A stretch of 20,680 bases of DNA from a virus. The notes under the pieces were generated by a model, which did no database searches, was not told the DNA's origin, and was given only the letters and a program-made list of their open reading frames with translations. Below are positions 12,297 through 20,680 of this stretch, one piece after another. Position 1 is the stretch's first letter; the number at the start of each line of letters is the position of its first letter. The stretch is from the IMG/VR virus record IMGVR_UViG_3300025840_000333, positions 1-20,680 of that record. One strand, 5' to 3'. Made by a program: the position numbers and the translations under genes.

Positions 12297-12413
12297 ATGA
12301 AAAAAGGCGGCGGCTACGTCATTGGCAAACCCAAGAAAACTCATCAGGGGCAGTCTAAAAATAGTAAGATGAAACCCCGACGAAAACGGCTCCGTGGACA
12401 AGGAAAAGGTTAA
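12297..12413 (+). CDS. 38-aa highly basic phage protein ending in RGQGKG
   Basis: A small open frame from ATG at 12297 to TAA at 12411-12413. The peptide begins MKKGGGYVIGKPKK and ends with a cluster of Arg/Lys and a final RGQGKG; about 40% of residues are Lys or Arg. From memory, very short basic proteins ending in 'RGQG(R/K)' recur in marine phage genomes, which is why I call this a real gene despite its size. The role is unknown; charge suggests binding to DNA, RNA or the packaged genome. The downstream endonuclease frame opens inside its last codons. A GATAAATA lies 6 nt upstream of the ATG. Confidence 0.55.
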   Translation: MKKGGGYVIGKPKKTHQGQSKNSKMKPRRKRLRGQGKG

Positions 12414-13002
12414 GAGCAAATTATATGGCTGTGTCGTAGACAAAAAAGGCAAAATTTATGGGCGATTAACAGTATTAGGTTACAGTCCTAGTAATAAACA
12501 TCAGACAACTCGCTGGGTTGTTTTTTGTTCGTGTGGAACCATATTCACTACTTATGGAATGAGCTTGAATTCTGGTAAGACATTAAGTTGCGGATGTTTA
12601 CAAAAAGAAAAAGCAACTAAACACGGATACTCAAAACATCCACTTTATAAAACATGGGTATCTATAAACTATAGATGTACAAATCCAAAGTGTAAGGACT
12701 ATAAAAATTATGGCGGCAGAGGAATTAAAAATTCTTTTCAATCCTTTGAAGAGTTTTGCAGAGTAATGGGACCAAGACCAACTAGCATGACCATCGAACG
12801 AAAAGATGTTAACGGAGATTACTCCCCTTCTAACTGTATTTGGATACCCAATAAAAAACAGGCTAGCAATAGACGCTGTTGCATTTCTGCTGAAACTAAA
12901 AATTTAGTTAAAGATCTTTTTAGCTCAGGGGTTTCCAAAAGTGAAATAGGTAGAAAATTGAATATAGGAACAACATCTGTATGCAGAATACTCAAAAATT
13001 AA
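12394..13002 (+). CDS. HNH homing endonuclease with C-terminal helix-turn-helix
   Basis: Up to 202 residues, from GTG at 12394, which overlaps the 38-aa gene by 20 nt. Later starts inside the first 20 codons are not obvious. The N-terminal zinc-like part carries FCSCG (45-48) and SCGC (65-68). A YRCTNPKCKDYKNYGGRGI stretch (93-111) precedes the catalytic block TIERKDVNGDYSPSNCIW (133-150) with NKKQASNRR, the 'D-x-n-G-x-Y-x-p-x-N-C-x-W' pattern of free-standing phage HNH enzymes. Residues 163-200 form a helix-turn-helix (SGVSKSEIGRKLNIGTTSV) that would target DNA. Such genes are mobile and spread by cutting phages that lack them. Its insertion between virion-type genes and the endolysin fits that. 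Confidence 0.75.
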   Translation: MDKEKVKSKLYGCVVDKKGKIYGRLTVLGYSPSNKHQTTRWVVFCSCGTIFTTYGMSLNSGKTLSCGCLQKEKATKHGYSKHPLYKTWVSINYRCTNPKCKDYKNYGGRGIKNSFQSFEEFCRVMGPRPTSMTIERKDVNGDYSPSNCIWIPNKKQASNRRCCISAETKNLVKDLFSSGVSKSEIGRKLNIGTTSVCRILKN

Positions 13003-13039: not shown

Positions 13040-13064
13040 ATATTGGTAATTAATGTACCAATAT
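13040..13064 (+). promoter_or_regulatory. Hairpin enclosing the endolysin start codon
   Basis: ATATTGGTA (13040-13048) pairs perfectly with TACCAATAT (13056-13064), a 9-bp stem with a 7-nt loop. The last two bases of the stem are the A and T of the ATG at 13063. No purine-rich ribosome-binding site is visible before it. In an mRNA that includes the whole hairpin, the start would be partly hidden; a transcript starting inside the 5' arm would leave it open. Confidence 0.55.
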
Positions 13065-13728
13065 GTACCCCTACAAAGAAGCTGTTCAGCTGATTAAAAA
13101 ATTTGAGGGGTTCCATGAGAAGGCTTTCTGTGACCCTACGACAGGCCAGGAAGCCTATCTTATTGGCTATGGTACTACTTATTACCCAGATGGATCTCCG
13201 GTCAAGCAAGGACATCTCTGCACCAAGCAAAAAGCAATGGAGTATTTACTGCAAGAAGTAAACGTTATTGCTAATGAACTAAACAAATTAAACTTAGGTC
13301 TTGATGCCTCTATGCTTAACGCGTTAATTTCTTTTGTCCATTCAGTAGGCTGGGAACCTTTTCTTTATAGCAGTATTATTGACTGGTGCGAACAGGAAGA
13401 TTATATCCAGGCATCCCGAGAAATCACTAAATGGATTTTTGATGCCACGCATCAAGCCATTGGTGGATTAATTGACAGACGTAGGCAAGAAGTTAAATTA
13501 TTTCTTCAGGAATACAATACAAATTCCTGGACATCAGATGACATACTTTTAAAGGCTTTCAGGAATTATGTTGCTGCTCCACATCAGGTACGTGCTATAC
13601 GTACACTGCAAGAATCAGTAAGTCCCTACACATTGTCTGAGTTCGCCAATGATTTTGATCTTGAATCCGATCCTTATACGGATTTTTCCCAAGATGAGTT
13701 AGATTCAATCTTTAAATGTTTGGACTAA
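13063..13728 (+). CDS. Endolysin, GH24 lysozyme-type muramidase
   Basis: A 221-residue protein with an N-terminal phage-lysozyme domain. IKKFEGF places the catalytic Glu at 15, CDP the second acidic residue at Asp24 (spacing of nine, as Glu11-Asp20 in T4 lysozyme), and IGYGTTY (34-40) the G-Y/H-G-T motif. SFVHSVGW (about 91-98) and an IDRRRQEVKLFL helix complete the domain near residue 150. These enzymes cut the MurNAc-GlcNAc bond of peptidoglycan to release progeny. The last 70 residues, ending in an acidic DFSQDELDSIF tail, are not part of the core and may bind the wall or a regulator. No signal peptide or transmembrane start is seen, so export would need a holin or similar; none is recognised here. 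A hairpin covers the start codon. Confidence 0.8.
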   Translation: MYPYKEAVQLIKKFEGFHEKAFCDPTTGQEAYLIGYGTTYYPDGSPVKQGHLCTKQKAMEYLLQEVNVIANELNKLNLGLDASMLNALISFVHSVGWEPFLYSSIIDWCEQEDYIQASREITKWIFDATHQAIGGLIDRRRQEVKLFLQEYNTNSWTSDDILLKAFRNYVAAPHQVRAIRTLQESVSPYTLSEFANDFDLESDPYTDFSQDELDSIFKCLD

Positions 13729-13741
13729 AATAAATAAAGTA

Positions 13742-14047
13742 ATGGCAAACGGTATGGGTGAATCTACCACTAAGGAATTTGATATGCCACTGCATCTTCA
13801 ATTGGCAATGCGTAAGGCAGAGATTGCCGTCAAAGAGATGACATGGGATGAACTTCAAGATGCCATTTTGAATCTTTATCACCAGCATTTGCTACAGATT
13901 CAAGCAGTTAAAGATATGTTGCAAGCAGAAGACATCGAGCTAGAATTTGACCTTCCTTCTGATATTGAGTTAGCGCAACTTGCTTTATCAATGATGAACG
14001 AGGAAAATTATGAAGACGAAGAAGGAGATGATTTTGCTCCTTTTTAA
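13742..14047 (+). CDS. NblA-like protein (candidate phycobilisome-degradation adaptor)
   Basis: A 101-residue acidic protein. Residues 16-61 align without gaps to the two-helix NblA/Ycf18 pattern recalled from cyanobacteria and freshwater cyanophages: L-x-L-x-x-Q-x-x-x-R (here PLHLQLAMRK), a V at the helix end, x-M-T/S-x-x-(Q/E)-x-x (KEMTWDELQD), then LY-x-Q (ILNLYHQHLL) and a final x-x-L-L/Q. Known NblA dimers link phycobilisome rods to Clp protease so that the antenna is degraded. The NblA core is about 60 residues; this protein adds an acidic C-terminal extension (residues 64-101, many Glu/Asp). It follows the endolysin by 13 nt. Identity is low and from memory, so this could be another short two-helix protein; if correct it is a host-metabolism gene acting on light harvesting. 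Confidence 0.45.
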   Translation: MANGMGESTTKEFDMPLHLQLAMRKAEIAVKEMTWDELQDAILNLYHQHLLQIQAVKDMLQAEDIELEFDLPSDIELAQLALSMMNEENYEDEEGDDFAPF

Positions 14048-14096: not shown

Positions 14097-14414
14097 ATGT
14101 TGTCAACGGAATATAGATTACGTCTTGAATTTATCTGTAACAAAATTTCTTGTAAAGAACCAGTTCAATTAAAAGATATGATCTGGGCTGAGAAGTTAGC
14201 TAAAGCTAATCGATCAGCAGGTGAGCTTTTAAGGCGCGCACGACGCATTGCTCATAACCCAGAAATGAAACAAAACAGTCTTGATGGTTTTATGAATGCA
14301 ATGGATCTTGGTGATCCAGACCCACAAAATTACCGCACCGGTTTTGACAGTGCGGATGACATTGTGGAATGGTTTAGCCAGGAAAAAACAGACGACTGGC
14401 GCCAAAGAGATTAA
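14097..14414 (+). CDS. Small conserved-looking cyanophage protein, unknown function
   Basis: A 105-residue mostly helical protein. The N-terminal half, EFICNKISCKEPVQL then DMIWAEKLAKANRSA and LLRRARRIA (about 10-50), has a pattern I associate with small hypothetical proteins of T4-like cyanophages, but no function is attached to them. The C-terminal part contains an acidic GFDSADDIVEWF helix. There is no membrane segment. A putative TATAAT-containing promoter precedes it. Its TAA shares bases with the minus-strand DUF3310 stop codon (TTAA, 14411-14414), so the two convergent genes overlap by 4 nt with no terminator between. Confidence 0.55.
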   Translation: MLSTEYRLRLEFICNKISCKEPVQLKDMIWAEKLAKANRSAGELLRRARRIAHNPEMKQNSLDGFMNAMDLGDPDPQNYRTGFDSADDIVEWFSQEKTDDWRQRD

Positions 14415-15539: not shown

Positions 15540-15566
15540 AGTCTAGCCATACTAAAATTTTAGACT
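15540..15566. terminator. Possible bidirectional terminator between convergent genes
   Basis: AGTCTA (15540-15545) pairs with TAGACT (15561-15566), and the loop region contains the perfect palindrome CTAAAATTTTAG (15552-15563). The element lies between the + gene ending at 15527 and the minus gene ending at 15560. The stem is AT-rich and short, so termination would be weak. Confidence 0.3.
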
Positions 15567-16144
15567 TTAGAAAGGACTACTTCATAAGGTTGTTTGTTAT
15601 ATTTGCCTTTACGTTCAAAGTAACTAACTTCACAAGGCTCTCCTTGATAAAACAAGAGCTGACAGATACCTTCGTTAGCGTAAATTTTATTAAACAATGG
15701 AGTGCAGTTACTAATTTCTAAAGTCAAATGGCCTTCCCAGCCAGCTTCAGCTGGTGTAATATTTGCCATAATGCCAGCACGGGCATATGTAGACTTGCCC
15801 ACAGCAACTACAGTGACATCTCGTGGGAGCTTAATATGTTCAATAGCAACGCCTAAACAGTAACCATAAGGCGGAATAATAAAATATTGACCCCTTTCAT
15901 CCTTATGCAATTCAGTTTCTTTTAAAATTTCAGGATCAAAGTTTTTGGCATCGCACATGCCATGCTGCACACCGCCAAATAAAAGACATTGGTTAGGAGA
16001 TAAACGAATGTCATATCCATACGAGCTAAGCCCATAACTTAAGACTGGGACATCGTTTTCTTTATTGACAAGATAATCCTGGAAAGGAGTTATCATCCCT
16101 TCCTCAGCTAATTTACGGATTTCTTTGTCGCTAAGAACAGACAT
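15560..16144 (-). CDS. dcd: dCTP deaminase
   Basis: A 194-residue enzyme that deaminates dCTP to dUTP, feeding dTTP synthesis during phage replication. Family signatures are clear: YGLSSYGYDIRLS (37-49), GKSTYARAGI (116-125), TPAEAGWEGHLTLEISN (130-146) with the expected catalytic Glu137 in GWEG, and YANEGICQLLFYQG (155-168). Length is normal for the trimeric family. Whether it stops at dUTP or also hydrolyses dUTP to dUMP (bifunctional form) cannot be read with certainty from these motifs. It is the last gene of the minus-strand operon, 23 nt after the Dam-like gene, with a weak GGA upstream of its ATG. Confidence 0.9.
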   Translation of the reverse strand: MSVLSDKEIRKLAEEGMITPFQDYLVNKENDVPVLSYGLSSYGYDIRLSPNQCLLFGGVQHGMCDAKNFDPEILKETELHKDERGQYFIIPPYGYCLGVAIEHIKLPRDVTVVAVGKSTYARAGIMANITPAEAGWEGHLTLEISNCTPLFNKIYANEGICQLLFYQGEPCEVSYFERKGKYNKQPYEVVLSKV

Positions 16145-18532: not shown

Positions 18533-20680
18533 GTGCCAAATAGAAAGATAACAGATTTTCCCGCTATTCTTCCAGGGGATATTGTCGATGCAGACGTGCT
18601 CAATTTGGTGCACGTTTTTGAAGTTGACCCTGCTCTACGCAATAAGAAAATTACTTTCAGTGGTTTTCGTGAATATTTAGATACATATTATATTAACTAT
18701 AATGAAATCGATCCTTTTGAGTTAAACAATTTAATTGTATCAGGCTATTTAAGAGTCAGTGGTGAAGCTACATTAGCCACTGGTTTAACAGTAAGTGGTA
18801 ATGCAGATTTTAAACAAGATGTAATTATTAGAAATGATTTGCTTATTGCCAATGATTTAACAGTAACAGGAAATATAACAGGAAATCAAATTGATGTTAA
18901 TAATTTATTAGGTGATTATTTAGAAGTTACTTCAGGCAATTTTACAATTGCAACAGGCACAACAATTGATTTTGTTAGTGGTTATTTTGACAATGTATCT
19001 GGAACAACAATTACAGGAGATTCTGTAGGCATTGATGATGGCACTGCAGTTACTTTTGCTGTAACAGATACTCTTGATGCTGTATCTGGTTTATTTGATT
19101 ACGCTAATGTAAAAGATTTAATTGCCACTGGAACCGTTGAAGTTAGTGGTACTTTTCTTGTAAGTGGTATTACAGCTACAGGTACTATTAGTGGTCAAAC
19201 AATTACAGGAGAACTTGCTAGTTTTACCACTGTAATTGCTCAAACAGGCATCTTTACTTCAACGGGAACCCTTTCAGGCGCAACAATAACCGGTGATGTA
19301 ATTAGATACACAACAGCAACAGGAAACGCTTTAACACTAACTACTGGTGACTTCACAAATGTTTCAGCCACTGGTATTAACGTCAATACTTTAACTGGAA
19401 CAACTATACAATTTACCAATGGTTTTATTGGTAATGACCTTACTGTTACAGGTGATTTAACAGCTACAAATATTACAGGAACTTACATCTCAGGTGCTAC
19501 AGGTGAATATACAACACTATCTGGAGCATCAATTACAGGCGATACTATTGATGCAACAACAATAAATGTTTCCACTTTAACTGCTGCAAATTTAAGCTTT
19601 AGTGGTGATCAGACTATTAGCGGTGATTTTACCGTTTTACAAGATATTTTTGCAAGTGGATCAGGATATTTTGCTTCCGGTATTAGCGTCACAGGAACTA
19701 TTAGTGGCGAAACAATTACAGGGCAGTCAGGTACTTTTGATACTTTAATTACTGCTCCTACTATTACAGGAGGTTTCGTTAGTGTTACAGGTGTTGTTGT
19801 TTCTGGTGACGTAACTGCAACAGGTGATTTAAGAGTTAGTGGTGTTTTAGATGTTGCTAACAATACAGATATTGGTGGAAATCTTATTGTTGTAGGAACA
19901 ACTCAATTAAGCGGCAATACTGATATTAGTGGGACTGTTTCTATTACCAGTGGAAATGTTGTAGGCGATGGGCTTACTAATATTAGTGGCATTTCTTTCT
20001 TAAATGTAAGCAGTGGTTTAGTTGATAACAATTTAATTGTTAGCGGAGATTTAGATGTCAGCGGTACTGCTACCTTTGATGAGTTAGTTATTCTTAGTGG
20101 GTTAACAGTTAGTGGAGACTTTTTAGTTTCTGGATCATTAACTGTTGATGATGATGCGACAATTAGTGGAAATATTACAGCTGTTACTGGTGTTTATACA
20201 ACAGTTACTGGTAATCTTGTTGAGTTTACGTCAGGAATATTTCAAGATTTAAGTGCTGTTACTGCTAGTGGCACAGCTTTAAGTTTTACAAATATTACAG
20301 GTACAACTGTAACCGGTATTGATGCATTATTTACTAATGGTACTTTCCAAACGCTAACAGGTGTTACTGTTACTGGTACTACATTAAATTTCACAAGTGG
20401 CTTCTTTGTTGATTTAGAAGCATCAGGCGACGTTACGCTTGATGGTAATTTAACTGTAATTAGTGGATTAACAGCAGCATCTGGAGTAATTGAAAATACC
20501 TTTACTGTTACAGGATCTACCACATTAGTCAGTGGTTTAACAGTTAGTTCAGGACAAGCTGCTTTCCCATGGGGAACTTCGGGAGAACCTGGCATTACGT
20601 TTACAGGTGATCTTAATACAGGTTTTTATAATGATTCTGGTGAACGTATTGGATTTGCTACAAATGGAAATCGTGCTGTA
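18533..20680 (+). CDS. Long repetitive tail fibre protein (partial, runs off the window)
   Basis: The frame is open from GTG at 18533 to the right edge with no stop, giving 716 visible residues. TAG at 18524-18526 closes the frame upstream. GAGGA at 18512-18516 is a distant ribosome-binding site. Residues 1-50 (NRKITDFPAI, then a KITFSGFREYL stretch) form an attachment-type head domain. From about residue 68 to 670 a beta repeat of Thr, Ser, Gly, Val and Ile recurs many times, with units like SGDLTVTG, VSGTTITGD and TNISG. The last visible part, DLNTGFYNDSGERIGFATNG, is a pattern commonly found just before the C-terminal intramolecular chaperone (Peptidase_S74-type) of phage fibres. It most likely binds the host surface; the receptor-binding end lies outside the window. 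Confidence 0.8.
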   Translation, partial: MPNRKITDFPAILPGDIVDADVLNLVHVFEVDPALRNKKITFSGFREYLDTYYINYNEIDPFELNNLIVSGYLRVSGEATLATGLTVSGNADFKQDVIIRNDLLIANDLTVTGNITGNQIDVNNLLGDYLEVTSGNFTIATGTTIDFVSGYFDNVSGTTITGDSVGIDDGTAVTFAVTDTLDAVSGLFDYANVKDLIATGTVEVSGTFLVSGITATGTISGQTITGELASFTTVIAQTGIFTSTGTLSGATITGDVIRYTTATGNALTLTTGDFTNVSATGINVNTLTGTTIQFTNGFIGNDLTVTGDLTATNITGTYISGATGEYTTLSGASITGDTIDATTINVSTLTAANLSFSGDQTISGDFTVLQDIFASGSGYFASGISVTGTISGETITGQSGTFDTLITAPTITGGFVSVTGVVVSGDVTATGDLRVSGVLDVANNTDIGGNLIVVGTTQLSGNTDISGTVSITSGNVVGDGLTNISGISFLNVSSGLVDNNLIVSGDLDVSGTATFDELVILSGLTVSGDFLVSGSLTVDDDATISGNITAVTGVYTTVTGNLVEFTSGIFQDLSAVTASGTALSFTNITGTTVTGIDALFTNGTFQTLTGVTVTGTTLNFTSGFFVDLEASGDVTLDGNLTVISGLTAASGVIENTFTVTGSTTLVSGLTVSSGQAAFPWGTSGEPGITFTGDLNTGFYNDSGERIGFATNGNRAV
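18734..20560 (+). repeat. Degenerate coding repeats in the tail fibre
   Basis: Short imperfect DNA repeats encode the (S/T)G-rich beta units. Recurrent forms are variants of ACAGG, AGTGGT, ATTACAGG and GGTGATTTAACAG. The unit is variable in length and no exact tandem array is present. The repetition can support recombination between units and hence variation in fibre length. Confidence 0.6.

Follow-up and report, generated by a model that had tools for sequence, protein, structure and literature searches.

A distant, enlarged NblA relative behind the endolysin gene of S-EIV1-type cyanophages

Directly behind its endolysin gene, the window analyzed here (the whole stretch of DNA, a 20,680-base virus record that shares its gene order with Synechococcus phage S-EIV1 between orf5531 (or orf6305) and orf18056) encodes an enlarged protein distantly related to NblA, with which cyanobacteria mark their light-harvesting antennae for degradation. 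In the S-EIV1-type lineage the gene holds this place in every genome that could be checked, and the one annotated genome, that of S-EIV1, calls it hypothetical. We favor, with somewhat better than even confidence, the explanation that the product is a divergent NblA homolog, belonging to a long-branch family of single origin in S-EIV1-type cyanophages, and that it dismantles the antenna via Clp. Phage nblA genes as such have precedents in phages of Microcystis and Planktothrix and in some marine phages. Divergent phage NblAs found by HHpred have likewise been described (PMC9602691). As far as the literature naming both S-EIV1 and nblA was covered, we found no connection between the two; an earlier mention is possible.

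Results

The gene and its surroundings

The NblA-like open reading frame that the first-pass annotation placed at 13742-14047 is present as described; it lies on the plus strand and encodes 101 amino acids. The true start is probably the second ATG, at 13754, because nearly all relatives begin at a Met that matches window residue 5, the second Met of the frame (MG[DE]../ME..). The separation of 13 nt from the endolysin given in that annotation therefore holds for the start at 13742 and becomes 25 nt for the probable start, a distance from the lysozyme that occurs more often than any other in the lineage. Scans for promoters and terminators near the gene returned signals that were weak or at chance level. 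The features of the locus are as follows.

13063..13728, plus strand: endolysin (phage lysozyme), the upstream neighbor; PF00959 (Phage_lysozyme), E=1.2e-18, and synteny
13754..14047, plus strand: NblA-like gene from its probable start at the second ATG, 97 aa; conserved start and spacing
13775..13939, plus strand: NblA-like core, residues 12-66; gapless NblA match and predicted hairpin, helices 17-32 and 35-62
13925..13999, plus strand: conserved extension without counterpart in NblA, residues 62-86; it consists of the linker ENIELEFD.P.D and the start of a predicted third helix (74-92)
13994..14044, plus strand: acidic C-terminal tail, residues 85-101, ending APF; charge and Phe conservation
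14097..14414, plus strand: phrog_507 gene, downstream, in only some relatives; phrog_507, E=2.7e-48

The association with the endolysin is seen from both sides. At loci fetched with the NblA-like gene, a lysozyme gene is the upstream neighbor wherever the contig reaches; at loci fetched by the lysozyme alone, the NblA-like gene comes next in 78 of the 78 contigs that extend far enough, a count drawn from the best 80 of at least 580 lysozyme loci, with some contigs present in both fetched sets. Every S-EIV1-type phage that could be checked carried the NblA-like gene.

Several neighboring genes vary or are of separate interest. The phrog_507 gene at 14097-14414 lies between the NblA-like gene and a convergent DUF3310 gene in about one third of S-EIV1-type loci and is missing from this slot in S-EIV1, and the position looks like an exchangeable cargo slot; 460 cyanophage records contain the phrog_507 family, most of them entries for Synechococcus, Cyanophage and Prochlorococcus, and the ones listed are mainly T4-like. 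Directly 5' of the lysozyme gene, an HNH endonuclease gene (12394-13002) is shared with near-identical contigs and one other relative (L089) only and is probably a homing endonuclease insertion. The minus strand carries a dCTP deaminase-like gene (15560-16144) that is conserved in S-EIV1 and relatives. Finally, a long open frame of more than 716 aa (18533-20680) exits the window; it is rich in SG/TG/TV repeats, for example 'TVSGDL', and its product probably resembles a tail fibre or is a beta-repeat protein of another kind, the P/V/T-rich minus-strand ORFs opposite it probably being a shadow of that frame.

Relationship to NblA

Homology of the phage family to NblA is well supported by sequence comparison at several levels. 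Residues 13-61 of the window protein align gaplessly to residues 5-53 of NblA, with 22% identity and 57% similarity, a score that none of 100,000 shuffles equals, which bears out the gapless NblA pattern first claimed for residues 16-61. The Pfam search originally proposed as a check fell short: alone, the window protein scores 9.9 bits against Pfam NblA (PF04485), below the gathering score of 25 bits, and no tested member reaches that value. The best relative, which is of brackish/freshwater type (a label taken from sequence type, not from sample metadata), scores 22.6 bits (E=1.4e-4) over 47 of 50 positions without a gap. Pfam NblA is the most-hit family, matched by eight of nine members, and the best family for most relatives in a wider set. 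By itself the window protein has no significant match in Pfam, PHROGs or NCBIfam, and tblastn with Anabaena NblA as query found no phage. Two other Pfam candidates, DUF4054 (the window protein's top match, E=0.024) and DUF4030 (weak, in relatives), were rejected as inconsistent across members.

It is the family context that carries the argument, and there profile methods give a clearer signal. Searched alone against the PDB, the window protein has a single match, NblA 1OJH, at E=0.8; a family profile, A1, likewise picks out a single entry among 177,635 distinct sequences, again 1OJH, at E=6.8e-4 and gapless over 50 residues (9.4e-4 with a wider profile). By hhalign, the first profile matches 15 cellular NblAs with a probability of 93.5% (E=2.3e-7), and a profile with more relatives does so with 95.8% (E=7.5e-9), the alignment covering 53 columns without a gap. 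With the first, smaller profile, the real score of 40.0 compares with a best of 24.9 among 300 shuffles (150 column shuffles and 150 that keep heptad classes) and with 10.6 and 11.8 for reversed controls. When the family profile was run against 386 cyanobacterial genomes in six frames, 48 matches were returned, of which 36, including the 19 strongest, are verified nblA (10 by an NblA profile, 26 by coincidence with Pfam NblA places); 11 more look like nblA, and the weakest is not nblA. In the opposite direction, a profile of cellular NblA gives the best family members 33.8 bits, compared with 38.2 for the NblA of PaV-LD.

Structure prediction is in keeping with these comparisons. An AF2 model of the 55-residue core alone reaches a pLDDT of 90.4, with helices at 6-20 and 24-51, so that the two-helix fold anticipated by the first-pass annotation is recovered as a predicted helical hairpin, as expected for an NblA domain. 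The full-length model is of moderate confidence (pLDDT 68.7), with helices at 17-32, 35-62 and 74-92. Foldseek searches of the PDB and BFVD found no NblA structure, with no chain at all for the core and nothing relevant for the full model, and a second look with VIA did not recover NblA either; with a query as short as this 55-residue hairpin, such negatives carry little weight.

The likeness to NblA noted at the outset thus stands as distant homology, carried by the PDB profile search, the profile-profile comparison, the six-frame genome search, the Pfam matches of relatives and the predicted hairpin, and the profile evidence argues for common ancestry with NblA. Because its scores lie below the Pfam cut-off and its C-terminal end departs from that of NblA, we do not file the phage protein as a curated PF04485 member.

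Motifs, extension and tail

The N-terminal motif LSLEQQFS.R appears as LPLE.QFS.R in brackish/freshwater-type members and is weakened to PLHLQLAMR in the window protein. At the other end of the core, the QWG of the K..QWG end of cellular NblA is absent from family members. The position of Lys53, which together with Leu51 we take to be a key residue of this C-terminal end, is mostly Q, A, E or others in the family, and K once. The N-terminal motif is the reported ClpC-binding side of NblA, and the C-terminal end is the reported phycobiliprotein-binding side (PMC4103541). Loss of QWG is not decisive, because the C terminus of PaV-LD NblA likewise lacks QWG, yet that protein is reported to be active (PMC9602691; PMC5780444).

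Beyond the core, the acidic extension of about 38 residues described in the first-pass annotation is not one piece, being acidic only in its last ~15-18 residues. The segment before it, residues 62-86, is conserved as ENIELEFD.P.D.EL..LA, with D70, P72, E76, L77 and L80 invariant in 33 sequences. The last 18 residues have a net charge of -3 to -11, and a Phe stands among the last three residues in all 33 members and at the very end in 25; most members finish in PF or F, others in PFFG (several marine members) or FFD. The tail may hold an SSB-type or other docking peptide, a possibility raised because the single-stranded DNA-binding protein of S-EIV1 ends TDEPF. In S-EIV1 that protein (29657-30466, L330) finishes ..DMTDEPF, and its C terminus resembles the window tail at 13994-14044.

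Distribution and ancestry of the phage family

Among 50,697 phage records, tblastn found one real relative, S-EIV1 AHV82245.1, which is annotated as hypothetical, and a second member used as query agreed; S-EIV1 is the sole isolate of the family. In IMG/VR, at least 369 viral stretches encode a relative. No relative was found by tblastn in 84,980 bacterial and archaeal genomes, a pattern scan of cellular genomes did not find the full-length phage type, and in 386 cyanobacterial genomes searched by profile the matches were nblA cores, none of them full-length. The family is phage-only. The phages Syn5, P60 and S-TIM5 gave no match with either of the two profiles used.

Thirty-three distinct sequences of the family were compared, and no member has a gap in the core. 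Purifying selection acts on the gene: the median dN/dS is ~0.17 for the core, 0.34 for the linker with the third helix and 0.51 for the tail, figures that are rough because few pairs are unsaturated. In a tree of the core, all 33 phage sequences fall on one side of a branch (support 100/99, stem of ~2.2 changes per site), and cellular NblA, Ma-LMM01 and PaV-LD fall on the other. The tree supports a single origin of the phage family; it is silent on the source of that family because the alignment has 49 columns only.

An earlier account of the S-EIV1 group gives hli and ptoX and no nblA (Nishimura et al. 2017, PMC5332604). In our searches, short hli (Chloroa_b-bind) matches occur in S-EIV1 at 13753-13911 and in 4 of 13 large relatives (L326-L329); of these, only the S-EIV1 match exceeds the cut-off, in a frame for which three stops are reported.

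Discussion

By analogy with NblA, we propose that the phage protein most likely acts as a Clp adaptor against phycobilisomes. It would form a dimer and dock on ClpC through its N-terminal region, and phycobiliproteins would thereby be brought to the Clp protease and the antenna dismantled. The linker, the third helix and the acidic tail with its terminal Phe probably provide a second docking site or a tether. Gene position alone suggests late timing: the gene ends the structural and lysis block, and its product would be synthesized late, when a supply of amino acids and reduced light harvesting could help the final burst. A phycobilisome-bearing host, as first proposed for the window phage, is consistent with its cultured relative S-EIV1, whose host is a Synechococcus.

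The main doubt concerns the cargo. Auxiliary metabolic genes seldom hold a fixed place next to the endolysin in every checkable genome, so that this one could have another core role; the fixed gene and its rebuilt C terminus could point to another target. One such reading, which we hold to be doubtful, is that NblA has been rebuilt as a fixed late Clp adaptor with a second docking tail that ties controlled breakdown of host proteins to the lysis module, perhaps for a target other than phycobilisomes. Less likely again is an NblA-derived Clp adaptor for new cargo, in which the hairpin would sit on ClpC and the rebuilt C-terminal half would deliver some other host or phage protein or block the protease. 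The N-terminal NblA motif is the best kept (as L.LE.QFS.R in brackish/freshwater-type members), the gene is fixed beside the endolysin, and the reported phycobiliprotein-binding C-terminal end (PMC4103541) is replaced by a conserved phage-specific segment, all of which would fit this arrangement. However, the reported activity of PaV-LD NblA without QWG means that the C-terminal region is no firm criterion. That we know of no alternative cargo also counts against it.

Two further explanations depart from the Clp pathway altogether, and we regard both as improbable. The protein might serve DNA metabolism or assembly, its PF tail mimicking an SSB peptide and recruiting SSB partners, or masking DNA or basic proteins late in infection. 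The acidic tail, the Phe at or near its end in all members and the ..DMTDEPF ending of the S-EIV1 SSB are compatible with such mimicry, but an OB fold is lacking, the helical hairpin of the core shares ancestry with NblA, and several marine members finish PFFG rather than PF. By a slight degree the least probable is a lysis helper or minor virion protein whose likeness to NblA reflects convergence of short amphipathic hairpins. Strict synteny with the endolysin would suit a lysis or virion role, and hairpins are a common small fold; against this, the profile evidence is specific to NblA, the shuffle controls keep helical periodicity, and the sequence has a strongly acidic C terminus and no hydrophobic stretch suited to a holin.

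If the protein is active as an adaptor against phycobilisomes, antenna dismantling would be a core, and probably late, step of a whole phage lineage and not an occasional acquired trait. That widespread lineage has been estimated to make up ~3% of cyanophage content in ocean viromes (Nishimura et al. 2017, PMC5332604), and S-EIV1 provides a cultured phage for testing the NblA-like gene.

Compared with cellular NblA/Ycf18 (PF04485; Anabaena, 1OJH), the phage protein shares the hairpin of ~50 residues in a gapless alignment, with common positions L.L..Q...R, M[ST].[DE]. and L..LY.Q and a core identity of ~21-33%. In contrast, the K..QWG end is replaced in the phage family, and the phage protein is half again as long, adding the linker, the third helix and the acidic tail with Phe. 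The cores of the phage proteins are similar to Anabaena NblA to a comparable degree, with identities of 22% for the window protein, 33% for one relative (L291), 31% for Ma-LMM01 and 14% for PaV-LD. The NblAs of the freshwater cyanophages Ma-LMM01 and PaV-LD are phage-encoded hairpins too, but they lie above the Pfam cut-off (52 and 45 bits) and lack an acidic tail. Their settings also differ: the nblA of Ma-LMM01 lies beside nrdA in a nucleotide-metabolism cluster with early transcription (PMC4103541), whereas the window gene stands right behind the endolysin. The marine cyanomyovirus S-SCSM1 and relatives carry a putative nblA found by HHpred (PMC9602691); like the window family, it encodes a small, distant NblA-like phage protein recognized only by profile methods, but it has 54 aa, belongs to another phage group and shows no detectable similarity to the window family. 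The closest counterpart is S-EIV1 AHV82245.1, a direct ortholog in the same post-lysozyme place with 44-50% identity.
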